A stretch of DNA of 64,000 nucleotides from Solirubrobacterales bacterium (GTDB lineage: Bacteria > Actinomycetota > Thermoleophilia > Solirubrobacterales > 70-9), in the NCBI GenBank assembly GCA_023958085.1, contig JAMLGI010000008.1, positions 1-64,000 on the forward strand. The letters are read 5' to 3'. Each line of letters starts with the position of its first letter. Positions within the stretch are counted from its first letter, which is position 1. The notes below the pieces were generated by a model. The model was not told the origin of the DNA and made no database searches. It was given only the letters and a program-made list of their open reading frames with translations. This document shows positions 19,529 to 52,145 of the stretch, piece after piece. Both the position numbers and the translations under genes were made by a program.

Positions 19529-21235
19529 TCAGGGGATGGCCGTCGAGAGGACGGAACTGGCGATCGGCGCCGCGACCGTGCCGCCGTCGCCGGGTGCGTC
19601 CACGATCAGCACACCGATCGCGTACTTCGGCTTGTCGGCGGGGGCGAATGCGGCAAACCAGGCGTCCTCGCTCTTGTCCGGTCCGCCCAACTCGGCGGTG
19701 CCGGTCTTGCCGGCGACCTGCCCTCCCGCGATCGCCCCGGCCGCGCCGGTTCCGGAGGTGACCACCGCGACCATCAGGTCCCCGACCTTCGCCGCCACCT
19801 TGCGGCTGGCGACCCTGGTTGGCTTGCGATCGGGCTGCAGTTCCGGTTCGAGGGTGATCGGGGTGGGTGAGGAAACCCCCCGGTTGCCGATCGCCTGAGC
19901 CACCGACGCCATCAGCAGCGGCGTTGCCTGGACCTTGCCCTGGCCGATCGCGCTGACCCCGACCTCGTTGTTGTACTCACCCGGCTGGGGAATCGTGGGG
20001 ACCGGCGGGTCGACCAGCTCGGTCGCTTCCGGGTCGAACAGGGCCGGCGGGCTGTTGAAACCGAACTTCTCGGCGGTGGCGGTCATCTCCTCTTCGCCGA
20101 TCTCCATGCCGAGCGGAGCGAAAACGGAGTTGCAGGACTTGGCGAACGACTCAACGAAGGTGCCGCCACAGACCTCGTTGTGGGCGTTGTTGATCAGTCT
20201 CCCGTCGGCGGCGCCGGCGGTCGCGTAGTCGAAGCTGTCGGTCATCTTGACCTTGCCGGTTTCCAGCCCGGCGGTGGCGGTCACGATCTTCATGGTCGAG
20301 CCCGGCGGCTGCAGCAGGGAGTAAGCCTGACCGGCGAGAGCGACCACGTAGCCCCTCCGCACATCGAGTACGGCAACCCCGCCCGAGCGGCCGGCGAGTG
20401 CGGTGACCGCGGCATTCTGGATGTCGGGGTTGATCGTGGTGCGAAGCGGCTTGCCGCGGCTCGGCTCGCCCTTCCCGAGAACCCGTCCCCTTCCTTCCTC
20501 CTCGGATCCGAACGGTTTGGCGAACAGGGTCCCGCCCGGAGTTCCGCCCAGCCTTTCGTTGAAAGCGAACTCGAGGCCGCTGGTCCCCACCGGGTCACCC
20601 GGGTCGTAGCCGAACGGAACCAGGTCGGCACTCACCTCCGGATCGGCCTGGCCGGTTACCCCGGTCACATCGATCATCGCGTCGCCGAGTGGATGTTCCC
20701 GGGCCTCGGCCGGTCCCTTGGCCATCGGCTGGCCACCCCTGGTCAGGATCGCGGTCCGGCCCGGCATCACCGTGTCACGGGTCAATTCCTCACCCAGCTT
20801 GAGTCCGGGGAAGAGCAGGCTGTTTTCCCAGGCGATTCCGTCCGAGCCGAAGCTGAAACGTAGTGGCTGTTTCACCGTGCCGAAAGCCCGGGTGTCGGCC
20901 GCGGCCGGCAGCCTGACCTCGGATTCATCACCTTCTGCATCCCCGTCCCCGGCCACCGAAGTCATCGTGGCGATGCCCTCCGACTTTTCGTATCGCTTGG
21001 TGAACCGGTCCAGCGGGATCGCCTCGCGGGACTTGGTCGAGAGCTTTTCGTGCATCGAGCTGTAGTCGTGTCTGGCCCAGGCCTCCAGGTAGCTTTCGGC
21101 GGCGTCGCGGTTGGGATGTCCGGGGCAGCCCTTGACCGCACCGGCGACGAACGAGACCAGCGCCAGGGCAACGAGCGGCAACGCCCGGGTCTTGAGGCGC
21201 TTCCGGCGATCCTGTCTGGTCGGAGTCCTTCCCAC
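19529..21235 (-). CDS. Penicillin-binding protein, class B transpeptidase with NTF2-like N-terminal domain
   Basis: A 568-residue protein with one N-terminal membrane helix (TRALPLVALALVSFVAGAVKG). Then comes an NTF2/MecA-N-like domain (PNRDAAESYLEAWARHDYSS onwards), a dimerisation domain, and the transpeptidase domain. Active-site motifs are S313-T-M-K316, S367-C-N369 and K510-T-G. It crosslinks peptidoglycan and is inhibited by beta-lactams. The start is GTG 21235. The MecA-N-like layout is also found in low-affinity PBP2a-type enzymes and in other gram-positive PBPs, so resistance cannot be inferred. Confidence 0.93.
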   Translation of the reverse strand: MGRTPTRQDRRKRLKTRALPLVALALVSFVAGAVKGCPGHPNRDAAESYLEAWARHDYSSMHEKLSTKSREAIPLDRFTKRYEKSEGIATMTSVAGDGDAEGDESEVRLPAAADTRAFGTVKQPLRFSFGSDGIAWENSLLFPGLKLGEELTRDTVMPGRTAILTRGGQPMAKGPAEAREHPLGDAMIDVTGVTGQADPEVSADLVPFGYDPGDPVGTSGLEFAFNERLGGTPGGTLFAKPFGSEEEGRGRVLGKGEPSRGKPLRTTINPDIQNAAVTALAGRSGGVAVLDVRRGYVVALAGQAYSLLQPPGSTMKIVTATAGLETGKVKMTDSFDYATAGAADGRLINNAHNEVCGGTFVESFAKSCNSVFAPLGMEIGEEEMTATAEKFGFNSPPALFDPEATELVDPPVPTIPQPGEYNNEVGVSAIGQGKVQATPLLMASVAQAIGNRGVSSPTPITLEPELQPDRKPTRVASRKVAAKVGDLMVAVVTSGTGAAGAIAGGQVAGKTGTAELGGPDKSEDAWFAAFAPADKPKYAIGVLIVDAPGDGGTVAAPIASSVLSTAIP

Positions 21236-21280: not shown

Positions 21281-22423
21281 GTGACACCGCTCGACTGGGG
21301 CATCGCCGCCTTTCTCTTCCTCGTTTCCCTCTGGGGGTTCCGCCAGGGCTTCGTGGTGGGTGCCCTCGGACTGGCGGGTCTAGCCCTCGGCGCGGTGTTC
21401 GGATCACGCATGGCGCCGGTCCTGCTGGAGGGAGGTTCTTCCTCGCCGTACGCACCGCTCACCGCTCTGGTCGGGGCAATCCTGATCGGTTCCCTGGCCC
21501 TGGCGATCGGGATCGGGGTCGGCGAGCGGGTGCGTGATTCCGCCATGAACCACCCCTTCCTTCGAACCCTCGACGGGATCGGTGGGGCCCTGCTGATCGC
21601 CGGTGTGGCCCTGGGCCTGATCTGGGTCCTCGGGGTCGTCGCGATCTATCTGCCCGGGGCGAGCGGGGTCCGGCAGGACGTGCAGCGGTCATATCTGCTG
21701 GGTGGGATCAATCGGGTGATGCCTCCCTCGGGCCCTCTGCTGCGGGCACTCCATCGGATTGACCCGGTCCCGAAGATCGTTTCGTCACCGGGTCAGATCG
21801 CTCCGCCAGCCCGGGGGACAGAGGGCCTCCGGGCGGTACGCACCGCCGCGCGGTCGGTGGTCAAGGTCGCGGGCACCGCCTGCGGGATCGGTGTGATGGG
21901 CTCCGGCTGGTCGGTCGGGAACGGTGTGTTCGTCACCAACGCCCATGTGGTGGCGGGGGAGAGCGACACCACCGTTGAGACCTTTGACGGTCGTTCCGGA
22001 CCGGTCACCGTGATCGCCTTCAACCCTCGCAACGACATCGCTGTTCTCCGGAGCACGGTTTCCCTGACCCCGCTGACGATGAGCGGATCGGTTCGAACCG
22101 GCTCGGCTGCCGCGGCCATCGGGTATCCCCTGGACGGCCCGCTCACCGTAACCCCGGCTCGCGCCGGAGAGACCCGCACCGTGGTCACCGGTGATGCCTA
22201 CGGGCGCGGGCCGGTCGAGCGCGAGGTGCTCCCGCTCCGCGGTCGGGTTCGTCACGGAAACTCGGGCGGTCCGGCGGTCGACCGTCGCGGCCGGGTGATC
22301 GGCACCGTTTTCGCGGCGACGACCGATGGCCCGGCGGGTGGCCTGGCGGTGCCGAACCGGGTGTTGACACGGATTCTCCGCGGCGCGACCGCCCCGGTCT
22401 CGACCGGACCCTGTGCCCGCTGA
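21281..22423 (+). CDS. CvpA-type membrane protein fused to a trypsin-like serine protease (MarP-like)
   Basis: A 380-residue protein. The first 125 residues are a CvpA-like membrane domain with four helices (from WGIAAFLFLVSLWGFRQGFV to GLIWVLGVVAIYLPG). The rest is a periplasmic chymotrypsin-fold protease with catalytic His222 (VTNAHVVAG), Asp252 (RNDIAVLR) and Ser328 (HGNSGGPA). This domain order is that of mycobacterial MarP, which protects the cell under acid and oxidative stress by cleaving a peptidoglycan hydrolase. Cys201 and the C-terminal Cys could form a redox disulfide. The specific substrate here is unknown. Confidence 0.9.
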   Translation: MTPLDWGIAAFLFLVSLWGFRQGFVVGALGLAGLALGAVFGSRMAPVLLEGGSSSPYAPLTALVGAILIGSLALAIGIGVGERVRDSAMNHPFLRTLDGIGGALLIAGVALGLIWVLGVVAIYLPGASGVRQDVQRSYLLGGINRVMPPSGPLLRALHRIDPVPKIVSSPGQIAPPARGTEGLRAVRTAARSVVKVAGTACGIGVMGSGWSVGNGVFVTNAHVVAGESDTTVETFDGRSGPVTVIAFNPRNDIAVLRSTVSLTPLTMSGSVRTGSAAAAIGYPLDGPLTVTPARAGETRTVVTGDAYGRGPVEREVLPLRGRVRHGNSGGPAVDRRGRVIGTVFAATTDGPAGGLAVPNRVLTRILRGATAPVSTGPCAR

Positions 22424-22891: not shown

Positions 22892-24373
22892 GTGGAGTCC
22901 GATCCCCGACACCAGCCTCTGGAGTCGGCCGAAGCCGACCGTCCGGCGCCGACCCCGGTCGGTGAGTACGCCCTTCAGCTGAAACGGGACCTCCAGGCGA
23001 TGCCCCGGGTGACGATCACCGGGGAGTTGACCCGGGTCACCAACAACCCCAGGCACAAGCAGGTCTACTTCGAGTTGACCGATGATCGCGGCGGGGTCCC
23101 GGGGACGATCTGGCGGAACGTCTTCGAGAGTTGCGACCTGCCCGAAAACGCGTTCAAGGCCGGTGCGGAAGTGGTGGTGACCGGGCGACCCGACTACTAC
23201 GAAGGCCGCAGGACCGCGTCACCCTCATTCAGCTTCCGGGCGACCGGGATCCGTCTCTCGGGTGAGGGCGACCTGCTCGCCCGTCTCGAGGTCCTGCGCA
23301 AACAGTTCGCCGCGGACGGCCTGTTGGACCGCCAGAAACTGCTGCCACGGCCGGCCCTGCCCCGACGGATCGGGGTGATCACCGCCGAAACGGGGGCCGC
23401 CAAGGACGACCTGCTGGCCGGACTTGAGCGGCGTGGCTGGGCCGGGGAGATCGTCTGGGGCTTCGCCCCGGTCCAGGATCGCAAGGCAGCCCCGACGATC
23501 ACCAGGATCCTGAGCGACATGGCCGCCTTCGGCGAGGTCGAGGCGATCGTGGTCTGTCGTGGCGGCGGCAGCCTCACCGATCTCTGGGCGTTCTGTGACG
23601 AGACCCTCTGCCGCACGGTGGCACTGCTGGCGGTGCCGGTCGTTTCCGCGGTCGGCCACGAACGGGACGTGACTCTGCTTGACGATGTCGCGGCCGTGCG
23701 CTGTTCGACCCCGACCCACGCCGCGGACGGGGTGATCCGGATTGACTGCCGAGCCGAACGGGAGGCGCTGATCCGTCGCGCCGGCCGGGTCAGTCTGGCC
23801 GGTCCGGTCGCGGTCAGGAGCCGGGCGATCCCGCTGGAGGCTCTTGCTGCCGGTCCGGGTCGGGCTCTCCGCCAGGAGCGCAATCTGCTCAACCAGAAGA
23901 CCAGGGAGATCGCGGCAGCGAGCCGACGCGGCCTCGTCCGGCGCGGCGACCGGCTGGCGGCAGAGCACGTAATGCGACTTGCCGCCGCTGCCGAACGCTT
24001 CAGCAGAACGATCATCACTTCGCAAGGCAAAAACGCGCAGCGGCCGGAACGAATCCGGGCTGGCGCGGCGAGACTGTTCGAGACCCGTGCCCGCACGCTC
24101 CAGTCTGAGCGGGTGGCGATCGATGCCCACGACCCGCAGCGAACCCTGGAACGCGGATACGCCCGGATCCTGGATCGTTCCGGGGAGCCGGTGGTTGACC
24201 CGGCTTCGGCCCGTCGAGCCGGGGATGTGAAGATCCGGTTCGCCAAGGGCGATGTGGAGGCCACGGTCGGTGCCCCGGGGAAGAGAAAGAGACATCGAAG
24301 CTCACGCGCCCCGACGGACCGGGAGAATGAGTTCAAGCAGATCACCCTGGAGGGAGTCGAGTCGGATGAGTGA
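22892..24373 (+). CDS. xseA: Exodeoxyribonuclease VII large subunit
   Basis: A 493-residue subunit of ExoVII, which degrades single-stranded DNA to oligonucleotides. The N-terminal OB fold (TITGELTRVTNNPRHKQVYF) binds DNA. The catalytic domain carries RIGVITAETGAAKDDLLAGL, AIVVCRGGGSLTDLWAF and PVVSAVGHERDVTLLDDVAA, all family hallmarks. The C-terminal third is a long, charged coiled coil that contacts XseB. The coding start is GTG 22892. It overlaps xseB by eight bases. Confidence 0.95.
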   Translation: MESDPRHQPLESAEADRPAPTPVGEYALQLKRDLQAMPRVTITGELTRVTNNPRHKQVYFELTDDRGGVPGTIWRNVFESCDLPENAFKAGAEVVVTGRPDYYEGRRTASPSFSFRATGIRLSGEGDLLARLEVLRKQFAADGLLDRQKLLPRPALPRRIGVITAETGAAKDDLLAGLERRGWAGEIVWGFAPVQDRKAAPTITRILSDMAAFGEVEAIVVCRGGGSLTDLWAFCDETLCRTVALLAVPVVSAVGHERDVTLLDDVAAVRCSTPTHAADGVIRIDCRAEREALIRRAGRVSLAGPVAVRSRAIPLEALAAGPGRALRQERNLLNQKTREIAAASRRGLVRRGDRLAAEHVMRLAAAAERFSRTIITSQGKNAQRPERIRAGAARLFETRARTLQSERVAIDAHDPQRTLERGYARILDRSGEPVVDPASARRAGDVKIRFAKGDVEATVGAPGKRKRHRSSRAPTDRENEFKQITLEGVESDE

Positions 24374-24686
24374 GGAAACGGAAGCGGTTGGACAGGACCG
24401 GACCTACGAGCAGGCGGTCACCCGGCTCGACCAGATCATCAACCGGCTCGACTCGGGCAGTGCCGAACTGCGAGAGACCCTGGATCTCTGCGCCGAAGCC
24501 AAGGACCTGATCGAGTTCTGCGCCGTCGAGCTCAACGCCGTCGACAACAGCCTCAAGGAACTCCGCCTGGAGGATCTGGCCGCCTCCCTCAACTCTTCCT
24601 CCGAAGCTCAACCTGCCGACGCATCACCGGAAGCGCCAGCCACCGAAGAGGCACCGCCACCCACGGACGACGAAGTCCCCTTCTGA
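24366..24686 (+). CDS. xseB: Exodeoxyribonuclease VII small subunit
   Basis: A 106-residue protein. TYEQAVTRLDQIINRLDSGS and the following helix ELRETLDLCAEAKDLIEFC match the small helical XseB fold that coats the coiled coil of XseA. The C-terminal 35 residues are acidic and proline-rich with no clear fold. It begins inside xseA (8-base overlap), as expected for translational coupling, and is needed to hold the nuclease in its proper stoichiometry. Confidence 0.92.
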   Translation: MSEETEAVGQDRTYEQAVTRLDQIINRLDSGSAELRETLDLCAEAKDLIEFCAVELNAVDNSLKELRLEDLAASLNSSSEAQPADASPEAPATEEAPPPTDDEVPF

Positions 24687-24702: not shown

Positions 24703-27700
24703 TCAGCCCGCTGAGGCAGCCGCGATCCGAGGCCCCAGCAGTTCGCAGGCCCAGCACTCACCGCAGGGCTGGTGGAGTGCTTCCGGTCCGCCGAGATACC
24801 TGCCCCGGGCCACCTCCCCGACCAGTCGCTCGATCTGATCGGAGGCAGCCGCCAGACGGTCCCGGTCGTAGATGACCTCCACCGGACGATCGGGAGATTC
24901 CAGGAACACGTAAGCCGTGCCGACCGAATCCACCCTGCGGTCCCGGGCGATACCGAGCGCATAGAGATCGCGTTGAAGGGTGTACGTCTCCATCTTTTCT
25001 TCAGGGGATGAACCGTCGAGCCGATTGGTCTTGTAGTCGAGGACAAGCGGAGGGTCGGCGGAGGGAAGGGCCAGATCGATGTATCCACGAATCATCAGCT
25101 TCCCGAAGCGGAGCACCAGGTTCACCTCGGTCTGGCTGCGCTCACCCTTGATCCGTTGGCCCAGGGGTGACTCCAGGAATCCGTCCACCATCGCCCGGGC
25201 CCGGGCGAACGTGTCGCCGCTCTCGGGGTCGAATCCGGCGACTTTGAGTTCCCTGCTTACAGCCCCGTCAGTCGGACGGATCCACCTGCCGTTCGGCTTG
25301 GCCGAATTTTCGAGCATCCGGTGAACGGCCGACCCGAAAGCAGAGCCGTCGTGGTCAACCGGCAGTTCGCGATCTTCCGGGTCCAGCGGTTCGGTTGAAG
25401 GGCGGTGGATCCCGTCGGAACCACCGTTCCCGCGGACCCGCCCCCGGGGTTGGCCCGGAGCTGGCTGTGGGTCGCGGAGTTTCAGCACCCGTCGGGCGAA
25501 AAACCGGGCGGGACAGTCCGCGAACTCACCAAGAGCCGAGTACGAGAGCGGCACGTCGGGCAGGGACGGCAAATCCGGCCTCGCGAGCGGAGGGATCCTG
25601 TCCGGCTCAGTGGATGGGTCGGTGGTTGCCAGGGCGAACTCCCGGGCAAGTTCAAGGCCCCGTTCCGTCGAGGCACGGTTGAACTCGACCCGGATTTCAC
25701 TTTCCGCCGGGACAATCCCTGCTTCCGGCAACGTCCCGGGGGCCGGGATCGGCAGCGGCTCGGGCTCGTCGGCACCAAGTTCGAACGCCGCAGCCAGACG
25801 GGCCAGATGGGAACTCGTTGCGGAAATCGAAGGGACTTCGCCCAGCGGGATCGTGCCGCTGAGCAGCAGTCTTCGCTCGGCCCTGGTCAGAGCCACGTGA
25901 AGCAGACGCAGCTCCTCATCGGCCGATGCCTCGTTGCTTGCCTGGCTGAGTTGCCCCCAATCGAAAAGCTTCAGGGTGTCGTCACTGCCCGGCACTGGTG
26001 CGTTGATGCCGACCGTCAGTTTCTTCCGGTCTCCGGGATCGCGGCCCACCCAGATCGCCGATTCGGTATCCGTCCGGCGCGGCCGCCCCATGTCGGCTAG
26101 GCAGACCATGCCGAACTCGAGCCCCTTCGACTTGTGGATGGTCATCAGCCGGACCGCCCCGGGCGAATCGTCGTCCACCGAGTCCTCGTCCGTCGATTCA
26201 TCCTGGGTGGAGACCGCGGCCTCCGAGTCGAGTCGTTTCGAGAGGTCGATCCAGTCGACCAGTCCCCGCAGATCGCGGCCGTTTTCCGTCTCGAACCCGG
26301 CCGCCAGGGAGGCCACCCGGCGGATGTTCACCAGGCCGGCCCCCGAAGGGTCGCGCAGCAGAGAGACCAGGTCGTAGCCGGTCCTCGTCACCGCGGCCTC
26401 GACCAGCTCGCCGAGCGGCATCAGGCCGGCCCGGTGCCTGAGGTCGTTGATCACGGCCACGGTCACCTCCGTTCTTGTCCGGTCGGACTCGGCGAGCTCC
26501 ACACCGACCGCGGCGGGGTCTTGCACCACGTTCCAGAGCGGCAGCCGTGACCAGCGTCCCGTTCCATCTGCCGCCGCTTCCCGGCCCAGATCCCGGGCCT
26601 CGTCCCGGTCGGTGCGACGGGCTGCCGCGAGCTTCCAGAGCGCGCTGCTACTGAGGCCGCAGGCCGGACCCGCCAGCAGCCCGAGCAGAGAATCATCATC
26701 GAGCGGGTTGGCCAGAGCCGCCAGCAGCCCCCGCAGGTCGACCCCTTCACGCGTGTCCCAGAAGCCGGTGCCGCCCGCCACATGAGCGGGGATCCCGACC
26801 TGGCGCAGGGCCTGCTCGAAGATCCACATACGGGACTTGCCCCGGAATAGGATCGCGATCTGGCCTGGCCGGAACTCCTTGCGCTCAACCGTTTCCCGAA
26901 TCCGGTGAGCCAGGGCCAGCGCCTCGGCTTCATGCTGGCCGGCGCCCTTCGGGCGGTCGGAAGCGCCGTCCGCGGAGGCCTCCGGCAGCGGTGAGAGACC
27001 ACCGAGATCGAACTCCGACCACGCCCCCGCCTCGTTGATGATCAACTCGACCTCGTCGCCCCTTTCCGGACCGCGGTCTTTCCCGTTTACCAGTTCCTGG
27101 AAATGGTGGGAAACCGGTTCCTGGCCGCCGCCGGTGACCCGTCGGCCGATCTCGTTGACCGCCCCGATGATCGGCCCGCCCGAACGGAAGTTCGCGGAGA
27201 GGGAGAGGACAGCGTCGGGGTCGCTGCGGCACAGCTCGTCGCGGCGGTCCTGGAAGAGCTGGATGTCGGCATGGCGGAACCCGTAGATCGCCTGCATCTC
27301 GTCACCGACCGTGAACAGGGTCGTGCCCTCTCCCCGCAGGGTTTCGATCAACTCCACCTGGAGCGGATTCGTGTCCTGGAACTCGTCAACCATGATTTCC
27401 GCAAACTGCTGCTTATAGATCCCGGCGATCGCCGGGTGACGCTTCAGCAGATCGAGGGTCATCAACTGGAGATCCTCGAAATCGAGGGCGCCAGCCAGGT
27501 TCTTCCGGCGGGTGAGTTCGGCTCCGTATGCGACCAGCAGCTCGTTCAGGACGGTGTACGTTTCCGCTCCGAAGGCCGATTCGGCGACCCTGGCGATCAG
27601 GCGGTCGAGATCGGCTTGGAGGTCGCTGACCGACTTCGGCAGACCCTCCGGGCAGAGCGAGTTCACCTCCTCCCAGGTCGGATCCCGGTCCGGCGGGAAG

Positions 27701-28359
27701 GCGGCGATGCCGTCGATGATTCCCTTGATCCTGTCCTTGGTCGTTTGACGGATGCGTGGAGTTGACTCCGCCGCCACCGCCGCCTCGGAAACCCCGATCG
27801 CGAGCGTCCGGGGGTCCGGCCGATTCTCCGGCAGGGGCGGCAGGGCCGGCTCGGTGGAACCGAAAGAGCGCAGCTTCTCCCAGACGTTCTCGATGCCCGG
27901 CCTGAGGACGTACGGGGAGAACCGCGAGATCACATCGAGGCGTTCGGGGCTGTCGGTGATCGTCGCCAGTGCCGCCTCCCAGGACTCGTCCTTCAACCGC
28001 TCAGACTGGACCTCGTCGAGGACCCTGAACGTCGGGTCGACGTCGGCGGCGATCGGATGGGCCCGCAGAATCCGGGCACAGATCGAGTGGAAGGTCCCGA
28101 CCCAGGCGGAACTAATCGAGAGCTTCCGTTCTGAGCCGGCCGAGACTTTCCGGATCCGGCTTCGCAGCTCGTTCGCCGCCTTCTCGGTAAAGGTGAAAAC
28201 GAGTATGTGGGACGGCTCAAGGCCGTTGGCGATCAGGCGGGCGTAACGGGCGGTCGTGGTCTTGGTTTTGCCGGTTCCGGCCCCGGCCACGACCAGGATG
28301 TTGGGCCGGTCGCATTCAACCGCCGTCCTCTGGTCGTCGGTCAGGTCTGGGGGGGTCAT
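24703..28359 (-). CDS. AddA/UvrD-like helicase-nuclease with C-terminal iron-sulfur PD-(D/E)XK domain
   Basis: A 1218-residue SF1 helicase fused to a RecB-type nuclease. Helicase motifs: Walker A AGAGTGKT (residues 25-32), EIMVDEFQDTNPLQ, GDEMQAIYGFRHAD, LSANFRSGGP, VRLMTIHKSKGLEF and HVALTRAERRLLL. Nuclease: FGSAVHRMLE and LVLDYKTNRLDG. The cysteine in FADCPARFF plus Cys1199, Cys1202 and Cys1205 (PCGECWAC) form a C-x(n)-CxxCxxC iron-sulfur staple. With the adjacent gene it should process double-strand breaks for recombination, as AddAB or AdnAB does. The downstream gene starts in a 4-base overlap. Confidence 0.9.
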   Translation of the reverse strand: MTPPDLTDDQRTAVECDRPNILVVAGAGTGKTKTTTARYARLIANGLEPSHILVFTFTEKAANELRSRIRKVSAGSERKLSISSAWVGTFHSICARILRAHPIAADVDPTFRVLDEVQSERLKDESWEAALATITDSPERLDVISRFSPYVLRPGIENVWEKLRSFGSTEPALPPLPENRPDPRTLAIGVSEAAVAAESTPRIRQTTKDRIKGIIDGIAAFPPDRDPTWEEVNSLCPEGLPKSVSDLQADLDRLIARVAESAFGAETYTVLNELLVAYGAELTRRKNLAGALDFEDLQLMTLDLLKRHPAIAGIYKQQFAEIMVDEFQDTNPLQVELIETLRGEGTTLFTVGDEMQAIYGFRHADIQLFQDRRDELCRSDPDAVLSLSANFRSGGPIIGAVNEIGRRVTGGGQEPVSHHFQELVNGKDRGPERGDEVELIINEAGAWSEFDLGGLSPLPEASADGASDRPKGAGQHEAEALALAHRIRETVERKEFRPGQIAILFRGKSRMWIFEQALRQVGIPAHVAGGTGFWDTREGVDLRGLLAALANPLDDDSLLGLLAGPACGLSSSALWKLAAARRTDRDEARDLGREAAADGTGRWSRLPLWNVVQDPAAVGVELAESDRTRTEVTVAVINDLRHRAGLMPLGELVEAAVTRTGYDLVSLLRDPSGAGLVNIRRVASLAAGFETENGRDLRGLVDWIDLSKRLDSEAAVSTQDESTDEDSVDDDSPGAVRLMTIHKSKGLEFGMVCLADMGRPRRTDTESAIWVGRDPGDRKKLTVGINAPVPGSDDTLKLFDWGQLSQASNEASADEELRLLHVALTRAERRLLLSGTIPLGEVPSISATSSHLARLAAAFELGADEPEPLPIPAPGTLPEAGIVPAESEIRVEFNRASTERGLELAREFALATTDPSTEPDRIPPLARPDLPSLPDVPLSYSALGEFADCPARFFARRVLKLRDPQPAPGQPRGRVRGNGGSDGIHRPSTEPLDPEDRELPVDHDGSAFGSAVHRMLENSAKPNGRWIRPTDGAVSRELKVAGFDPESGDTFARARAMVDGFLESPLGQRIKGERSQTEVNLVLRFGKLMIRGYIDLALPSADPPLVLDYKTNRLDGSSPEEKMETYTLQRDLYALGIARDRRVDSVGTAYVFLESPDRPVEVIYDRDRLAAASDQIERLVGEVARGRYLGGPEALHQPCGECWACELLGPRIAAASAG

Positions 28360-31300
28360 CCGTCGCCTTCCGGGTTGTCGCTCTCGGGGCGCCAGTCGGG
28401 GACGGCAGGGTGGTGAAAGTGGTCGGGGCAGGTGAGCGGGTCGTGGGCGATCAGGCCGGATCTGATTTCCGCGACGGCTTGGTCGGCCAGCCCGGTCGCC
28501 TCGGCGATCGCATCCTCCAGATCGGTCTTGTCCTTTCCTACCGTTCGGATTCCGGCGATCTCGCCGAAGTCTTCCTCTTCGATCGGTCCCCGGGGCTGGC
28601 GTTTGCCGTTGCAGACGGGCAGGTACAGCCCGGCGAGCGGATCGATCTTCCAGAGTTCCCTGACGGCTTTCAGGTAGAGCTGAAGCTGGAGCCGCCGACC
28701 GCTCACAATCTTCTTCCAGGTCTTGACCGAGCCGTTGCCGGTCTTGTAATCGATCACGACACCCCGTCCGTCGGGGGTTGTGTCAACCCGGTCGATGGTC
28801 CCGACCAACTGCCAGTCCTCGAACTGAAGTGCCTCCTCCCTTGAGCCCTCCCTGCCAAAGGACGCTTCGAGAAGTTTCGGGACGAGCGGAGACTCAAACC
28901 CGGCCTCAAGCCGGATCTGGGTGCTTATGTCAGCGACCGCCCGCCTCAGCATCACCTCGCTTGAAGCACTACGCCGCTCCTCGGTCAGGCCCGCCGCCTC
29001 GGCAGCTTCCGCGACCGCCGGGGCGACCGCGGACAGCCACTGATCCAGACTGTCTTCCCGCGGCCTCTGTCCCGGCCTGCCCGAGTAGATCGTCTGAAGA
29101 GCCTGGTGGACGATGTTCCCGCGGGCCAAAGCCTCGGGTTCCGGACCAAACCGCTGGAGGCCCAGCTCCCGTTCGATGAACCAGCGGTAGGGGCAGCCGG
29201 TGAAGGATTCAAGTCCGGTGGGGCTGAACGTATTCCGGCCACGCAGCTTCTCAAGGACCTCGGGATCATTCAGATCGGAAAGCGCCCGGGTCTGCTCGTC
29301 GATGATCCCCGCATCGGCTATCTGTGCCACCGCATCTTTGACCGGTAGCTCAGGCAGCCCGGCGTCGGGGGCGACTCCGACCGCAGCCTGTGCTGTGAGG
29401 CTCCGGGTCAACTCGTGTTTGCTCGGAGCCACGGCAGGGGGAAAGATGATGTCCGAGCTCACCCGGCGGATCACGGTCAGACCCGGATGCCTCCGGCCCT
29501 CTTCATCGCTTTCGATCTCTTCGGGAGACCTGAAGAGATCGGTCACCGCCTGGATCAGGGGCGACGGATGTTCCGGGGAGCCGTTGTCATCGGCGATCCG
29601 GCAGGAGATACAGAGCCCCTCGGTCGGCACACTCAGACAGGAATGAAACAGATACCGCTCCTGGTCTTCAGGGGGGTTGGGGTCTTCCATCCCGATCGCG
29701 CCCCGGACTCCCTTGTTCAGGAACGGCCCGTCGGACCTGTCGCTCGCGCCGGGGTCACGCTCCTGTAGAGACACCATGAACAGCCGTCTCACCCGCTTGG
29801 CCCGGAGGCTGTACGGGCTGGCGATGCGAACGGTGTTGCCGGCCGGGACGGCCCAGGTGGAGACCGTCCCGGAGGTCAGCGCATCGAGGATGTGACCCCG
29901 GCCGAGCCGTTCGCCGTGGATCGTCTGAAGTTCCTCCACCGCCTGGTGAATCGCGGTCGTCATCTGGGTTTCGGTGGCGACGTCGGGTCCGGGCAGATCG
30001 GGATCGGTGCTGCCGAGCAGCGAAGCCACGACCGTCTCGAGCAGATCGAGCACCGCCTGCCCCGGATCGTGACCGCGGGCGGCCTCCAGAAACGGTACCC
30101 GGTTACCGCAAACCCGCCGGAAGATTTCTGCGGCCTCACGGGCGTCCGTAACGCTCGCCCGGACGCATCTGAGCTCGGTTCGGTCGACCATTCCGGGGTC
30201 GGTCCCGACCGGTCCCCGGAGGAAGCGCAGCAGATCCTCGGTGCGGCCGGAGGGGCCGGCGGCCCGCAGCAGGGCGATCACCGTCTGTCCGACCGCTGTT
30301 CCGGTTGCCGCGGTCTCACACTCAAGCGTGGAGGCGATCCCGTACTCCCTCAGTACATCGTGGAACACCCGGCCGTTGACGGCCGGGGAGTTCACCGCGA
30401 TCGCAATCTCGTCAGGGGTGACGCCGGTGGAAACCAGCCGCGCGATTTCCGCACCGACCGCTTCCGCCTCGCCCCGGGTGCCGGACGCCTCGATCAGGGT
30501 GAGCGACCGGTCGGGGGAAAGGGGAGTCGCATCCGGCAGCCGACGCAGGAAACGACGCTCGATCTCGTTCAGGAGGGGTTCGCGACCCGCCTCGCGACCA
30601 TCAAGGCGATCTCGAGGCTGGTTCGCATCGCCATGCTCAGGCAGTCGGGAAAGGAGCAGGTCGGTCACCGCCATCGCGGGGCTGTCGTCCTCGTGAGTGA
30701 TCGCGATAGTGACTGTGGTCTCCTTCGCCAGTCGGACAAGCAACTCCAACTGAACCTCGGTCAGATCATCGAATCCGGCCAGGAACACCGGTCGGCCCTG
30801 CCAGTGATCGAGAGCGGAGACGGAGGCTTCGGCCGCAAGAGCCGCCTCATCCTTCAAGCCGAGTTCGGCCAGGGAGGAGGTGTAGGCGGCAAACATCTCG
30901 CCGATGCGTTCCAGCACGGACCCGTCGGGGCTGGCCGGGCCGTCCTCTTCCGGACTGTCAGCGGAATCCACGGAATCCGCCTGGACCCTGAAGGCGTCCG
31001 GGAAGATCCGGCCTGCTCGCAGGTCATCGAAAGCCCTGAGCGCCGCATCGATCAGTCCGGGTTGCCGCTCCAGACGATTGGCGATCGCGGGCCATCCCCT
31101 TCGGATCGACTCGGCTGCCAGCGCCCGGCGGCGCAGCGGTCCGGCGATTCCGGTTCTCTCGAGCGGGTCGCGTCCAAGGATGGCACCGATCAGATCCTTG
31201 AAATGCATGACCCTGCCTCCGAGCAAGGCACCCTGGTCTCCCCGGGTGAGCCGCTCCTCCCAGGTAAAGATGTCATCCGTGGAGGGAACCACCAGAACTG

Positions 31301-31394
31301 GGTCCTTGCCCTCACGCAGGCGATCCATGTAGAGCTGTCGAACCTGTTCGGTTCGGCCTGAATTCGGGGGTCCTTTGATGATGGTCAGCGGCAC
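28356..31394 (-). CDS. AddB-like nuclease subunit with degenerate ATPase
   Basis: A 1012-residue protein. The N-terminus, TIIKGPPNSGRTEQV, is a Walker A in which Arg14 replaces the essential lysine, so ATP use is doubtful. The middle carries helicase-like folds without clear motor motifs. The C-terminal third is a PD-(D/E)XK nuclease: LARGNIVHQAL and GVVIDYKTGNGSVK. In AddB proteins four cysteines normally bind 4Fe-4S; here the first is kept (FTGCPYRWF) but the last group is CPDHFHH with one cysteine at 989. It probably pairs with the AddA-like partner encoded just downstream (4-base overlap). Confidence 0.87.
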   Translation of the reverse strand: MPLTIIKGPPNSGRTEQVRQLYMDRLREGKDPVLVVPSTDDIFTWEERLTRGDQGALLGGRVMHFKDLIGAILGRDPLERTGIAGPLRRRALAAESIRRGWPAIANRLERQPGLIDAALRAFDDLRAGRIFPDAFRVQADSVDSADSPEEDGPASPDGSVLERIGEMFAAYTSSLAELGLKDEAALAAEASVSALDHWQGRPVFLAGFDDLTEVQLELLVRLAKETTVTIAITHEDDSPAMAVTDLLLSRLPEHGDANQPRDRLDGREAGREPLLNEIERRFLRRLPDATPLSPDRSLTLIEASGTRGEAEAVGAEIARLVSTGVTPDEIAIAVNSPAVNGRVFHDVLREYGIASTLECETAATGTAVGQTVIALLRAAGPSGRTEDLLRFLRGPVGTDPGMVDRTELRCVRASVTDAREAAEIFRRVCGNRVPFLEAARGHDPGQAVLDLLETVVASLLGSTDPDLPGPDVATETQMTTAIHQAVEELQTIHGERLGRGHILDALTSGTVSTWAVPAGNTVRIASPYSLRAKRVRRLFMVSLQERDPGASDRSDGPFLNKGVRGAIGMEDPNPPEDQERYLFHSCLSVPTEGLCISCRIADDNGSPEHPSPLIQAVTDLFRSPEEIESDEEGRRHPGLTVIRRVSSDIIFPPAVAPSKHELTRSLTAQAAVGVAPDAGLPELPVKDAVAQIADAGIIDEQTRALSDLNDPEVLEKLRGRNTFSPTGLESFTGCPYRWFIERELGLQRFGPEPEALARGNIVHQALQTIYSGRPGQRPREDSLDQWLSAVAPAVAEAAEAAGLTEERRSASSEVMLRRAVADISTQIRLEAGFESPLVPKLLEASFGREGSREEALQFEDWQLVGTIDRVDTTPDGRGVVIDYKTGNGSVKTWKKIVSGRRLQLQLYLKAVRELWKIDPLAGLYLPVCNGKRQPRGPIEEEDFGEIAGIRTVGKDKTDLEDAIAEATGLADQAVAEIRSGLIAHDPLTCPDHFHHPAVPDWRPESDNPEGDG

Positions 31395-31437
31395 GGGATG
31401 AACTCTAGGGTCCGCTTCGGCGGAGCGAATCTGACGA

Positions 31438-31471
31438 AACCCCGCTGTTCATCCGCAAAATGCGGGTTTTT
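31438..31471. terminator. Hairpin with U-run upstream of the 31.5-kb gene
   Basis: AAACCCGC (31438-31445) pairs with GCGGGTTT (31462-31469), and a smaller CCGCA-TGCGG stem ends in TTTTT on the plus strand. It sits between the divergent AddB-like gene and the gene at 31551. It could stop rightward antisense transcripts or act as a leader structure. Confidence 0.5.
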
Positions 31472-31550
31472 GATGCTCCTTTTGGCGTCCTGCGGCGGCT
31501 CTATCTTGGCTGTTGACAAAGCCCCGATCCGAAGGGACGGCATTTCCCCA

Positions 31551-32006
31551 ATGTCACTCTGTTTCGTCGACCCGGCCGATGCGATTCATGTGATTTCCGA
31601 TTCGATCGGCCGTGAGGCCCGTCGTCAGCTGCTCGCCGAGGCGCTGCGTGCATGGGTGGACGAGATCCCGGAGGAGGAGCTTGAGACCCAGTACGCCCGG
31701 GCCCTGTCCGATCTCGATCAGGACGATCTGTCGCTGCTGGCGGCCTGGCACGGCTCGCTCGATCTCGGGCAGCCGCTCCCCAACCGGGACTTCCTGATGG
31801 GCGCTTTCTCCTCCCTGGGAGAGAACCGTCGGGAGGCCCTGAAACTGGCCGCCGGTTTCCGCGGCGAGGAGGTGCTCGAGGACGGCCTGACCGAGGATCT
31901 CGCCCTGGAGACCGTGCTCGGCTGGCTGTCGCCGAACCGGCTGATGGACCTCGCCGACGAGGCGATCGAGCTTTACATCTGGGACAGGGCCGGCTCCGAC
32001 AATTAG
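31551..32006 (+). CDS. Hypothetical protein (151 aa)
   Basis: A 151-residue acidic, mainly helical protein with no signal peptide. Phrases such as WVDEIPEEELETQYARALSDLDQDDLSLLAAW and GWLSPNRLMDLADEAIELYIW show leucine-rich amphipathic helices. ATG 31551 follows GAAGGGACGG at a good distance. The longer reading from 31398 would add an unlikely hydrophobic tail across a hairpin. It is followed at once by a hairpin. No family recognised; being next to the helicase-nuclease operon is the only hint to function. Confidence 0.6.
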   Translation: MSLCFVDPADAIHVISDSIGREARRQLLAEALRAWVDEIPEEELETQYARALSDLDQDDLSLLAAWHGSLDLGQPLPNRDFLMGAFSSLGENRREALKLAAGFRGEEVLEDGLTEDLALETVLGWLSPNRLMDLADEAIELYIWDRAGSDN

Positions 32007-32039
32007 CGGGCGGTCCGCAGGAACCACCAGCCGCCCGCT
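32005..32039 (+). terminator. Hairpin at the end of the 31.5-kb gene
   Basis: AGCGGGCGG (32005-32013, overlapping the stop codon) pairs with CCGCCCGCT (32031-32039), a perfect 9-base stem. No strong T-run follows, so it may be a weak or Rho-assisted stop. Confidence 0.45.
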
Positions 32040-32423
32040 GGCTTCGTCGACGGCCGGAAATCACAGCTCACTTACACACGTAATATCGCGGTAATTTCCG
32101 GCCTTTACTTCTTGCCAGCGGACGGCTGGAGGCCCCTGCGAACCACCCGCCCGTTGACCGGTCGCTGGGGAAATCACCGGAGTAGCGGCGTCTGCGGCGT
32201 CATCGGCCTCGCGGGTTCTCTCACGCACCGAAGTACGTTCGCTGCTCCCGTTCGGTCGATTCCTTGCATCCATCCGCGCAGGAGGTCCCTGCGGACCGCC
32301 CGCCTTTTGGGAAGAGCCACGGGGAGATAAATGCCCTACCCGCGCCCCGCGTTCGGTGGATTCCTGGCCAGGCGAACGGCTGGACGGCCCCGGATAACTT
32401 CGAACCTCCTGCCACCCGTTCCG

Positions 32424-32490
32424 CCCCAATCGCCGGTGCTGCCGATCCGAGTCCGATCAGGTCCCTGATCGCCAGCACCGCCGATTGGGG
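32424..32490. repeat. Large nested inverted repeat
   Basis: An 18-base left arm beginning CCCCAATCG pairs with a right arm ending CGATTGGGG at 32473-32490, with 17 of 18 positions matching. Inside it, GATCAG and CTGATC form a second 6-base stem (32455-32470). A transcript would fold into a long two-part hairpin. Confidence 0.7.
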
Positions 32491-32555
32491 CTCCATCTGC
32501 CTCACGCGAGACGCTCACGGACCAAAGACCTGCCCGCGCCTGTCCCCCGTGAACC

Positions 32556-32604
32556 GTTCTGGAGCCGGTTTGGGCGGTATGGCCGCCACTATCGGCTCCA
32601 GAAC
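32556..32604. repeat. Palindromic REP-like repeat, family A, copy 3
   Basis: Same 12-base termini (GTTCTGGAGCCG / CGGCTCCAGAAC) and 49-base length as the copies near 1.7 kb. The internal sequence GTTTGGGCGGTATGG shows base changes relative to those copies. Confidence 0.8.
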
Positions 32605-32625
32605 GGGTGGGACTCGTGGGGTTGT

Positions 32626-32674
32626 GTTCTGGAGCCGGTTTGGGCGGTATGGCCGCCACAATCGGCTCCAGAAC
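32626..32674. repeat. Palindromic REP-like repeat, family A, copy 4
   Basis: Identical to copy 3 except for one base in the right arm (ACAATCGG for ACTATCGG). It lies 21 bases after copy 3, which repeats the paired layout near 1.7 kb, and 42 bases past the end of the leftward HAD gene. Confidence 0.8.
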
Positions 32675-32716
32675 GGGTGGGGGTCTCGGGGTGGGACCGG
32701 CCTAGGGCCATGCCTC

Positions 32717-33385
32717 CTAGCGGCCTCCGCCGTGCTGCTCCAGCAGGTTGTGAACCTCGCGGCGGGCCTGGGCGGTTTCGCGGAAGTGGACTGCATGGAT
32801 CCCGAGCTCGGCTGCTGCCGCACAGTTGATCTCCATGTCGTCGATGAAGATGCAGTTCTCCGGAGCCAGTCCGACCCGGCCGAGCGTCAGCTCGTAGATC
32901 CGGGGATCGGGTTTGCGCAGGCCGACGAAGGCGGAATCGACCACCGTCTCGAACAGGTCGTCGACCGGCAGCATCGAGCGCCAGGTGGCTTCCCACTCGC
33001 GCACGTTGTTGGTGAGCATCGCGGCGCGAAAACCACGTCGCCTCACCTCCCGGATCAGGTCGATCATCTCCGGGTTCGGATCGAGCGCCTCGAACAGCCG
33101 TTCACCGAACGAGTCGATGTCCGGCCGACGTCCGATCAGCGGCTCGATCGCGTCGGCCAGCCGACCCTGGAACTCGGCCTCGGTGATCCGCCCGCACTCG
33201 AGTTCGAACAGCGGGTTCTCGCCGGACTGTTCGGCCGCGGCCGCGAGCCCCTTGCCGAAGGTTCGGAGCGGGATTCCGGCCCCGTCCTGAACGGCGGCGA
33301 AGGCATCGGTCAGCGGGGAGGTCAGGACCCCGCCGAAGTCGGAGATCACCATCTGGATGAAGGGTCCCTGATCGGGCTGGCTCAA
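32717..33385 (-). CDS. HAD-family hydrolase
   Basis: A 222-residue haloacid-dehalogenase-like protein. Motif I is ISDFGGVLTS, with the nucleophilic aspartate but glycine in place of the usual second aspartate, as in the epoxide-hydrolase N-domain and dehalogenase-like branch. Motif II is AAMLTNN, motif III has RKPDPRIYEL and motif IV is CIFIDDMEIN. The cap domain lies between about residues 20 and 85. The substrate, a phosphate ester or halide, is not predictable. The start overlaps the upstream gene stop by four bases. Confidence 0.9.
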   Translation of the reverse strand: MSQPDQGPFIQMVISDFGGVLTSPLTDAFAAVQDGAGIPLRTFGKGLAAAAEQSGENPLFELECGRITEAEFQGRLADAIEPLIGRRPDIDSFGERLFEALDPNPEMIDLIREVRRRGFRAAMLTNNVREWEATWRSMLPVDDLFETVVDSAFVGLRKPDPRIYELTLGRVGLAPENCIFIDDMEINCAAAAELGIHAVHFRETAQARREVHNLLEQHGGGR

Positions 33386-34167
33386 CTGTCTGTCTCCTCA
33401 CTTGTCCGGGGTCGGGTCAGTTCATATCTTCCGGTCCCGGCGTGACCGTCCAGGGACCAGCGAAACAGGGCGGTGTTCACCGTGGCGTCGGGGAGCCGGG
33501 CGGTGCAGCCGGCGACCGAGTGCCCGGCACCGTGCAGGGCGGCGACCTGTTCGCTGGCAGGCCAGAGCTCCAGGGTTGCCCGCTGCTGCCGTCCCGCTTC
33601 ATCGGACTGGGTGGAGACCAGGGCCCGCTCGAACTCCAGGTAGCCACCGGGATGGCTGATCGCTGCCACCGCTTCCTCCTCGCCGTGGCACCAGCTTGCC
33701 TCCGGCCCGGCGGTGGCGACACAGAGCAGACCGCCTTCGTCGAGGATCACGGTCAGATCACGCCGGAGTGAATCGGACGAAGGCGGGCGCTTCACCGAGT
33801 GGATGACCCCGGTACCGCCGATCCGGTGCTCGTCGCCCCGGTCGGTGAGGGTCCCGCGGACCTCGGCCCGGCAGGATTCGCGCTCGCCGGTCAGGTTTCC
33901 GCTGAACCGGATCGGCTCGCCGACCGATTCAAGTCCGACCTCGAGCTCACCGCGTTCAGTGTCGAGCGAGAGGGACGTTCCGGCGGTGAATGAGGAGAGT
34001 CCGCCGGCCGGGATCGGTGATGCCGCGATCACCTCGCCGTCCAGGATCACCGCACCGTTGCCGCCGGCGGTGAGGCTCAGGAAGAGTCCCGATCCGGGAT
34101 CCAGGACCTCGACCGAGCCGACCTCGGGCCGGTCCGGGGCCCGGTCGTCCGGACCGGAGTCAGGCAT
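33382..34167 (-). CDS. Hypothetical beta-rich protein, possibly lipocalin-like
   Basis: A 261-residue protein rich in beta strands, with phrases such as SLDTERGELEVGLESVGEPIRFSGN, VIHSVKRPPSS and a final HAGTGRYELTRP. The paired halves suggest a two-domain lipocalin-like or DUF7064/7065-like barrel, but this is tentative. Start ATG 34167 overlaps the FxsA stop by eight bases; ATG 34203 is an alternative that would overlap more. It is in an operon with FxsA upstream and the HAD hydrolase downstream. Confidence 0.6.
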   Translation of the reverse strand: MPDSGPDDRAPDRPEVGSVEVLDPGSGLFLSLTAGGNGAVILDGEVIAASPIPAGGLSSFTAGTSLSLDTERGELEVGLESVGEPIRFSGNLTGERESCRAEVRGTLTDRGDEHRIGGTGVIHSVKRPPSSDSLRRDLTVILDEGGLLCVATAGPEASWCHGEEEAVAAISHPGGYLEFERALVSTQSDEAGRQQRATLELWPASEQVAALHGAGHSVAGCTARLPDATVNTALFRWSLDGHAGTGRYELTRPRTSEETDS

Positions 34168-34714
34168 CGTTTCGGTCGTCTGGCTTGTCCCGTCGGCCGT
34201 CATCCTGCCCGGAGGGTAGTCGGCGCACGTAATCACCATCGGATCCGGGGCTGGTGGTCACGTCGACGACTTCGCCTTCGATGTCGTAATCCGGTCCCCG
34301 GGTCCGGTAGTAACGGTCGCGAGTCACTCGCCATGCCGTGGTCGAGGCGCGAAAGCGGGAAGCGAACAGCCAGAAGAGCACGATCCGGACCAGGAAGCGA
34401 GTGGGTGGCAGCAGGACCAGGATCCCGACGAAGCTGGTGAGGAAACCGGGAATGATCAGCAGGAATGCACCGGCGGTGATCATCACCCCGTCGAACGCTT
34501 CCCGGGCCGGCGGCTTGCGTGACCTGACCGCACCGCGCAGCCGCTCCCAGTGGACCCGTCCCCGATGGCGCAGAATGAGCATTCCCGCCACCGCGGACAG
34601 AAACAGGAGGAAAAGCATCCAGAAGAACCCGAGCCAGCGGGCCACTTCGATCATGAGGTAGATCTCGGCGATCGGCCAGACGATCAGGAGGGCAAGGATG
34701 ATCACGAATGCCAT
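34160..34714 (-). CDS. FxsA-family membrane protein
   Basis: A 184-residue protein. MAFVIILALLIVWPIAEIYL opens the cytoplasmic-membrane FxsA fold, followed by WLGFFWMLFLLFLSAVAGML and GVMITAGAFLLIIPGFLTSFVGILVLLP, then a charged tail of about 60 residues. FxsA in Escherichia coli affects phage exclusion when overproduced, but most homologues are uncharacterised. The start at 34714 was chosen because the membrane segment begins there; upstream residues are basic and low in complexity. Confidence 0.82.
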   Translation of the reverse strand: MAFVIILALLIVWPIAEIYLMIEVARWLGFFWMLFLLFLSAVAGMLILRHRGRVHWERLRGAVRSRKPPAREAFDGVMITAGAFLLIIPGFLTSFVGILVLLPPTRFLVRIVLFWLFASRFRASTTAWRVTRDRYYRTRGPDYDIEGEVVDVTTSPGSDGDYVRRLPSGQDDGRRDKPDDRNDA

Positions 34715-34845: not shown

Positions 34846-35163
34846 ATGGCTACGGAACAGGCGACCATGCCGAGCGAAGAGGAAGTGTACGAGGCCCTCG
34901 AAGATGTGATCGACCCCGAGCTCGGGCTCGACTTCGTTTCCCTTGGCCTCGTTTACGACGTCGAGATCGAGGCGCCCGATGTGTACGTAACCTTCACCCT
35001 GACCACGCCGGCCTGCCCGATCGGACCCCAGGTGTCGGTTCAGATGAAGGAGTTCGTGAGCGCCTTGGACGGAGTCCGCGACGTCTACCCGAAAATGATC
35101 TTCGACCCGCCCTGGTCACCGGAGATGATGACCGAAGACGCCAAGTTCGCGCTCGGTTTCTAG
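34846..35163 (+). CDS. MIP18/SufT-family iron-sulfur assembly factor
   Basis: A 105-residue protein of the DUF59 family. EEEVYEALEDVIDPELGLDF, then VSLGLVYDVEIE, TTPACPIGPQ with the conserved cysteine, and FDPPWSPEMMTEDAKFALGF at the end are the classic family sequence. It helps deliver Fe-S clusters to target proteins. In many actinobacteria it ends the suf operon; here it is 9 kb from sufD, sharing four bases with the convergent acyltransferase gene. A leaderless -10 box precedes it. Confidence 0.88.
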   Translation: MATEQATMPSEEEVYEALEDVIDPELGLDFVSLGLVYDVEIEAPDVYVTFTLTTPACPIGPQVSVQMKEFVSALDGVRDVYPKMIFDPPWSPEMMTEDAKFALGF

Positions 35164-36707
35164 CTCTTCTTTGCGGGGGTCCGGGCGGCCCCGTTGGAGC
35201 TGCCCCTCCCGCCCGAGGCCTTCTTTGCCGGGGCCTTCCTGCCCCCGGTCCCGGTGGACCTGCCCGCGGCAGGTTTCTTCTTTTTGGCCGGGGTGATCGA
35301 GCTCTCGATCTCATTTGCCGCATCCAGCAGCTCCGCCAGTGACTCATCCATTCCCCGGCGAACCACGCCGATGTCCGGCATCGCGTCGAAATCGCCGATC
35401 AGGCCGATGTTGACCGTGCCGGAATAGCTCATGATCCCGATCGCGAGACCGTGGTTTTCGGCGAGGAAGGCGACCGGGATCGACTGGCTCAACCGGCGGC
35501 CAAGGATGTAGAGCGGCATCTGTGGTCCGGGAACATTGGTGACCAGCAGGTTGAAGAGGCGGGTGGAAAAGGTGAGGCGGGCGGCCTGGGCCAGCAGGGT
35601 CGGGGGAGCGAAGTCGTTGAGCCGCGCGATCACTTCCGCGCCGAGCGCCTGCTTTGACTGTTTGAGGCCGTCCATCGCGGAGCTGACGATCTCCAGGCGA
35701 GCGACCGGGTCGGGCTCATAGACCGGTAGCGGCGCCCGCATGGTGGTGAGCTTGTTTCCGAGATGGCCGTGCTCGTCCTTGGTGCGGACCGACACCGGGA
35801 CCATCGCCCGCATCTCAAGTCCGTTGGTCTCAACCCCGCGCTGGAGCAACCACCTGCGGACCGAACCCGCGGCCACGGCCAGCACCACATCGTTGACCGT
35901 GGTGCCGAATACGTTCTTGATCCGGCGGAAGTCATCCAGGCTGGCCGAGGTCCAGGTGATTCGGCGGTGGGGGCCGATCGGCACGTTCATCGGCCCTTCG
36001 GGGGCTGCATCGGCGAAGGCCCGCGCGACCTCGGCCAGGCCTTCGGCGCTCTCGCCCACCCGCTCGGCCAGCGAAGACGGCTGGCGCAGGGCGGAAAGGG
36101 CCTTCTCCCCGAGCCGGACCGGTTCGCTGACCAGCTCCCGGGCGCCCCGGCCGAGCAGGCTGATCCCGGTCGGCAGCGGGTCCGGTTTCCACTCCACTTC
36201 GGGAACGATCGGGTCGGCGTCGGGCGCCAGATCGAAGATCACGGTGCCGATGTCGACTCCGGAGATTCCGTCGATCATCGCGTGATGACTCTTGATCACG
36301 ATCGCGAAACGGTCGCCCTCGAGATCCTCGACCAGAGTCATCTCCCAGAGCGGTTTGGCCCGGTCGAGCGACTGCGAGAAGAGTCGTGAGGTGAGGATCT
36401 TGAGCTCCCGCTCCATGCCGGGGGAGGGCAGGGCGGTGTGGCGAAGGTGATAGTTGAGGTTGAAGTCCGGATCGTCGGCCCAGAGCGGTCGACCGGTGCT
36501 GAACGGGGGATGAACCAGCTTCTGCCGGTAGCGGGGAACCAGGTCGAGCCGGGAGCTGATGTGGGCCTTGAACTCGTCGTAGGTAGGCGGCTCGCCCTCG
36601 AAGATCATCACCGCACCGATGTGCATGTGCGAGTTCTGATTTTCGTTGCTCAGAAACTGCGCGTCGATCGCGGTCAGTCGGTCAAGATGGTCTGTCGGCG
36701 ATTCCAT
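35160..36707 (-). CDS. Wax ester synthase/diacylglycerol acyltransferase (WS/DGAT)
   Basis: A 515-residue O-acyltransferase. The catalytic HHxxxDG motif is SHHAMIDGISG at about residue 140, and GTTVNDVVLAVAAGSVRRWL and PVSVRTKDEHGHLGNKL are the next conserved blocks. It joins acyl-CoA to long alcohols or diacylglycerol to make storage lipids. The C-terminal 45 residues are lysine-, alanine- and proline-rich (AKKKKPAAG..., ARTPAKKS), an unusual tail that could bind membranes, lipid droplets or nucleic acid. The start follows GAGGGAGA. Confidence 0.92.
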   Translation of the reverse strand: MESPTDHLDRLTAIDAQFLSNENQNSHMHIGAVMIFEGEPPTYDEFKAHISSRLDLVPRYRQKLVHPPFSTGRPLWADDPDFNLNYHLRHTALPSPGMERELKILTSRLFSQSLDRAKPLWEMTLVEDLEGDRFAIVIKSHHAMIDGISGVDIGTVIFDLAPDADPIVPEVEWKPDPLPTGISLLGRGARELVSEPVRLGEKALSALRQPSSLAERVGESAEGLAEVARAFADAAPEGPMNVPIGPHRRITWTSASLDDFRRIKNVFGTTVNDVVLAVAAGSVRRWLLQRGVETNGLEMRAMVPVSVRTKDEHGHLGNKLTTMRAPLPVYEPDPVARLEIVSSAMDGLKQSKQALGAEVIARLNDFAPPTLLAQAARLTFSTRLFNLLVTNVPGPQMPLYILGRRLSQSIPVAFLAENHGLAIGIMSYSGTVNIGLIGDFDAMPDIGVVRRGMDESLAELLDAANEIESSITPAKKKKPAAGRSTGTGGRKAPAKKASGGRGSSNGAARTPAKKS

Positions 36708-52028: not shown

Positions 52029-52145
52029 CCGGTGGCGCACCCAGCCCCCCAGTGATTGCCCCGGCGGGCTGTCCAGCAGTCTTCCGCCAAGGGGCTATCC
52101 TGGCTTCGGTCGGAGTGGTTGCGCTGCGAGGAGAGTCGGACCGAG
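52029..52145 (+). other. Leader gap between the SauUSI-like and HNH genes
   Basis: About 117 bases without a gene; the in-frame upstream reading of the HNH frame (from a TTG at 52056) adds a basic stretch with no family look. GAGGAGA at about 52128 may be the ribosome site. Confidence 0.4.

Follow-up and report, generated by a model that had tools for sequence, protein, structure and literature searches.

An AddAB-type helicase-nuclease with staple cysteines in AddA and loss of the late staple cysteines from AddB in one genus of Solirubrobacterales

Which subunit of an AddAB-type helicase-nuclease carries the iron-sulfur staple, and can that arrangement change? AddB is the subunit that holds the [4Fe-4S] staple in Bacillus subtilis (Yeeles 2009, as cited in PMC7430649); there the staple pins the two ends of the nuclease domain together and matters for the integrity of the structure (PMC7430649). 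According to the title of that study by Yeeles et al., which PMC7430649 and PMC4824097 both cite, the cluster is essential for the binding of broken DNA. The gene pair that we describe here, found in a window of 64,000 nucleotides (the whole stretch of DNA that was analysed), differs from this system in that the four cysteines are in AddA, while the late triple is gone from AddB. We consider it likely that the pair encodes a chromosomal AddAB-type complex that resects double-strand breaks, in a genus where the three C-terminal cluster cysteines have disappeared from AddB and AddA keeps a four-cysteine site with a shortened spacing to the third ligand.

The gene pair and its motifs

The genes are arranged as addB and then addA on the minus strand, with the start of addA overlapped by 4 bp of addB. 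Both open reading frames, as well as the FADCP, CxxCxxC, GPPNSGRT, FTGCP and CPDHFHH motifs that a preliminary description had reported, were confirmed by reading the sequence:

24703..28359, minus strand: addA-like gene, 1218 aa; UvrD-type SF1A motor and C-terminal PD-(D/E)XK nuclease with four staple cysteines
25840..28359, minus strand: AddA motor region, about residues 1-840; Walker A AGAGTGKT, DEFQDT and GDEMQAIYGFR all intact
24745..25554, minus strand: AddA nuclease domain with staple, about residues 936-1205 (Pfam PDDEXK_1, AlphaFold model, VIA-align)
25513..25515, minus strand: AddA C949 (FADCP), the first staple cysteine
24745..24765, minus strand: AddA C1199-GE-C1202-WA-C1205, the late staple cysteines (C1199-x2-C1202-x2-C1205)
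28356..31394, minus strand: addB-like gene, 1012 aa, GTG start; vestigial UvrD-like helicase domain and PD-(D/E)XK nuclease
31350..31373, minus strand: AddB degenerate Walker A GPPNSGRT, residues 8-15, with R in place of K
28410..29231, minus strand: AddB nuclease domain, about residues 722-995, active site complete
29193..29195, minus strand: AddB C734 (FTGCP), invariant in the alignment and the sole staple cysteine still at its own place
28410..28430, minus strand: AddB C989-x2-H992-x2-H995 (CPDHFHH), a remnant of, or a replacement for, the late staple cysteines

The full open reading frames and conserved active sites rule out a pseudogene or a frameshift. The AddA-like protein matches the Pfam families UvrD-helicase, UvrD_C and PDDEXK_1; the AddB-like protein has a strong match to PDDEXK_1 and a weak one to ADDB_N. 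The top NCBIfam match of the former is addA_Gpos (261.7 bits, below the equivalog cut-off of 707.65), and the first match of the latter is addB_Gpos (60.6 bits, below the cut-off of 903.7). These scores deny the pair membership of the Gram-positive equivalogs, and not of the wider AddAB type.

In an alignment of 24 sequences all AddA motor motifs are invariant, as are C949, C1199 and C1202, which lie at the staple positions, as the preliminary description had proposed. One conserved cysteine precedes the nuclease motifs and three follow them. The preliminary description had also divided the labour anew, with motor and cluster in one subunit and a nuclease with a degenerate motor in the other. 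This division is not supported. The AddA nuclease residues H1013, D1095, D1108, K1110, Q1129 and Y1133 are invariant in the same alignment, and H763, D868, D882, K884, Q903 and Y907 are invariant among the aligned AddB sequences, so that the nuclease is not limited to AddB and both active sites are complete. Furthermore, the helicase-like domains of AddB and RecC have lost most or all of their motor motifs and act as Chi scanners (PMC4824097). Because a degenerate helicase domain is normal in these proteins, and in AddB across the sampled class, the arginine in the AddB Walker A is one more degenerate form rather than a new division of labour. GPPNSGRT is typical of AddB in the window's genus. 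In related genera the motif reads GPPNSGRA, GPPGSGRG or GPANAAKA, apart from two sequences with GKT (G023 and G249); this comparison draws on the alignment and on the legible entries of a regular-expression tabulation in which the starts of the reading frames are ragged.

AlphaFold modelled the AddA C-terminus with high confidence at the cysteine tail (block pLDDT 92-94). When the model is compared by VIA-align with the staple nucleases AdnA, AddB, Dna2 and Cas4, the match runs to model residues 341-348, beyond the cysteines at 329-335, whereas the match to AddA, RecB and AdnB ends at residues 292-311. These end-points indicate that the AddA described here has a C-terminal segment that is matched by staple nucleases and is unmatched by the solved AddA-type subunits, that of B. 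subtilis included.

Other DNA-repair genes lie next to addA. The genes for the large and small subunits of exonuclease VII, xseA and xseB (22892-24686, plus strand), converge on addA and end 16 bp from its stop, so that xseA, xseB and addAB form a small DNA-repair cluster. Also nearby are a penicillin-binding transpeptidase with a MecA_N-like domain (19529-21235, minus strand), a MarP-family serine protease (21281-22423, plus strand) and a wax ester/triacylglycerol synthase (35160-36707, minus strand), the last two being in keeping with a genome of Actinomycetota. Beside addB, at 31398-34239, are open reading frames of 202, 393 and 285 aa with no Pfam or NCBIfam match.

The staple cysteines in the genus, the class and other phyla

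Sampling of both proteins covered 18 genomes of the window's genus and extended to its family, order and class. The genomes are mostly metagenome-assembled, and the AddA C-terminal profile was matched in 263 of the 299 sampled from the class. Outside the genus the late cysteine triple is present in every AddB (73/73), and AddA has late cysteines at the corresponding places in about 70 of 71 sequences (64 of them as CxxCx6C), the exception being an unfinished tail. The sampled class therefore has an AddAB with staple cysteines in both subunits, i.e. a dual-staple form.

The genus departs from this in both proteins. Its AddA has the first cysteine and three late cysteines in all 16 complete tails, of which 15 read CxxCxxC and the other Cx4CxxC; the late cysteines are spaced C@0,3,6, compared with C@0,3,10 in relatives, and the spacing of the third ligand is unlike that of all of them. 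Chance cysteines in AddA are ruled out by this genus-wide conservation. In AddB the late triple is absent from all 18 sequences, although one (G004) has an additional cysteine at +4. What the genus AddB retains is the first cysteine (17/17), the late cysteine (18/18), a histidine at +3 (18/18) and, in 15 of 18, a histidine at +6. Only two of four staple cysteines, C734 and C989, are thus conserved. The preliminary description, which placed the four-cysteine signature in AddA and not in AddB, is therefore true of this genus, and neither an alignment that puts the cysteines off the staple positions nor a poorly conserved CxxCxxC, its own grounds for refutation, was found.

In a tree of AddB computed without the cysteine tail, the genus forms one clade (SH-aLRT 100) whose stem is long, at 0.66 changes per column. 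The simplest reading is a single loss in AddB and a single ligand shift in AddA. A move of the cluster site from AddB to AddA is ruled out, as both subunits carry it in related genera. One genome of the genus (G002) has two addAB loci, on contigs C75 and C107, both with the cysteine loss in AddB, which reflects either duplication or contamination of a metagenome-assembled genome.

Named loci from other phyla give a broader view. Of 28 that have both genes, nine have staple cysteines in both subunits, about 16 in AddB only and about three in neither, where two loci (L111 and L118) were reassigned by eye because their AddB does have late cysteines. The nine come from Candidatus Aquicultor, Planctomycetota, Tissierellia, Thermoflavimicrobium, Acidobacteriia, Tumebacillus, Pyrinomonadaceae, Acidaminococcus and one further metagenome-assembled genome; the first AddA cysteine is uncertain in two of them (L069 and L073). 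In the dual-staple forms of the same class and of other phyla, for example those of Candidatus Aquicultor, Tumebacillus, Thermoflavimicrobium and Acidobacteria, the four AddA cysteines are at the same positions as here, but AddB too has four, and the late AddA spacing is CxxCx5-6C or similar rather than CxxCxxC. Outside the window's genus, no pair with staple cysteines in AddA only was seen in the class sample or among the 28 named pairs, a small and non-random set.

There are also AddA-like proteins with staple cysteines for which no AddB was found alongside (L084, L086, L098, L072 and L123, from Ignavibacteria, Poribacteria, Acidobacteria and Chloroflexi). Upstream of the AddA-like gene in L084 and L086, the neighbour is an open reading frame of about 1280 aa.

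Possible metal sites in the two nucleases

A cysteine in a CP motif followed by CxxCxxC is the classical ferredoxin [4Fe-4S] arrangement, and the AddA pattern resembles it. We infer that an iron-sulfur cluster is bound by AddA and not by AddB, and that DNA-end resection by the complex proceeds as in B. subtilis AddAB. The AddB nuclease domain would then fold without a [4Fe-4S] staple, perhaps with its CxxHxxH remnant, and may be held together by packing alone or by a Cys2His2 metal site.

The second of these options deserves attention. C734 and C989-x2-H992-x2-H995 could be a converted site, holding Zn2+ or a Rieske-type Cys2His2 [2Fe-2S] cluster, in which a different metal would take over the structural role of the staple. 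The four residues stay conserved, to the extent given above, at AddB identities of 36-49% within the genus, and the two histidines suggest that some metal may still be bound and that to speak of no staple is perhaps too strong. However, the +6 histidine is absent from three members, AlphaFold is unsure of the CxxHxxH tail (block pLDDT 57-70), and we know of no nuclease with this Cys/CxxHxxH arrangement. We regard such a conversion as possible, if somewhat unlikely. The fuller version, in which AddA alone keeps an iron-sulfur cluster and the two nucleases are stapled by different metals, is in our view unlikely.

A similar doubt could be raised over AddA, where four cysteines can hold zinc and the spacing has been altered, such that the shortened site might have exchanged its cluster for zinc. 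The site is nevertheless homologous to the four-cysteine staples of relatives and retains the ferredoxin-type arrangement, which makes zinc in AddA improbable.

The type of complex and the roles of its subunits

The window pair is of the AddAB type. AddA combines SF1A helicase motifs with RecB-type nuclease motifs, AddB has an inactivated UvrD-like domain, a RecB-type nuclease and AddB as its best structural match, and the two genes are adjacent; the addB-addA order is the same in relatives and the pairing is maintained across the sampled class. Of the [4Fe-4S] staple cysteines expected of AddB the late triple is lacking, hence we call it a variant. With B. subtilis AddAB (PDB 3U44, 3U4Q, 4CEH/I/J) it shares gene content, domain plan, a vestigial AddB helicase, a single AddA motor and two nucleases.

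The mycobacterial AdnAB complex is likewise a two-subunit motor-nuclease (PDB 6PPJ, 6PPR, 6PPU, 7SJR, 9NP6). The genome is probably actinobacterial: in a PcrA tree its protein falls beside that of an Acidimicrobiia metagenome-assembled genome (support 99/96), and on this evidence the sampled class would probably be Acidimicrobiia. Relatives in the PDB include AdnA and AdnB, and a profile built from the C-terminal part of AddA matches RecB, AdnB and AddA. The full-length AddB model (mean pLDDT 83.5) is nonetheless closer to AddB of B. subtilis than to AdnA, both in Foldseek (E 5.9e-35, the best match, against 8.5e-23) and in VIA-align (Z 33.8 over 939 residues against 24.6), and the profile of the AddB C-terminus gives AddB first in the PDB (55.8 bits) and AdnA second (36 bits). 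In AdnAB the cluster subdomain sits in AdnA, the AddB-type subunit, and it is this subunit that is without the subdomain here. We think it very improbable that the pair is an AdnAB.

Iron-staple domains are known in AddB, Dna2, Cas4 and Bad (PMC7430649). Dna2 and its bacterial relative Bad combine such a nuclease with an SF1 helicase, as here, and the AddA C-terminal model aligns with Dna2 at Z 11, but their nuclease is N-terminal and their helicase is SF1B (PMC7430649). UvrD-Cas4 fusions of pfam12705 have an SF1A motor and an iron-staple nuclease in one chain and are described as stand-alone or in restriction-modification neighbourhoods, rather than as AddA subunits paired with an AddB (PMC5704561). 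That the AddA-like protein is such a defence-type fusion (Hudaiberdiev et al.), of the same architecture (PMC5704561) and beside an AddB by chance, is hardly credible, given that the genes overlap, that AddA has an AddB partner throughout the class and that a separate, shorter UvrD-PDDEXK protein in the genome fits that class better. This second protein, an open frame of about 1006 aa on contig C1 (about 49136-52078, minus strand), has a CxxCx5C staple and resembles the fusions of PMC5704561; similar open reading frames seem to be present in most genomes of the family.

For the AddAB-type pair, we propose that AddA would be the single working 3'-5' motor, pulling along the 3' strand, which its own nuclease could cut. 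AddB would be a vestigial-helicase subunit of the Chi-scanner type with a second nuclease, and would scan and cut the 5' strand.

In the literature searched, which missed several key AddAB and AdnAB papers, neither staple cysteines in AddA nor their loss from AddB were found to be described. What appears to be new, as read from the sequences, is the history, i.e. a dual-staple class with the AddB loss in one genus. With an entire genus in which AddB has lost the cluster cysteines yet has all its nuclease residues intact, nature offers a test of the role of the staple. Furthermore, with staple cysteines in both subunits across the class and in several other phyla, the textbook view of a cluster in AddB only covers part of the family.
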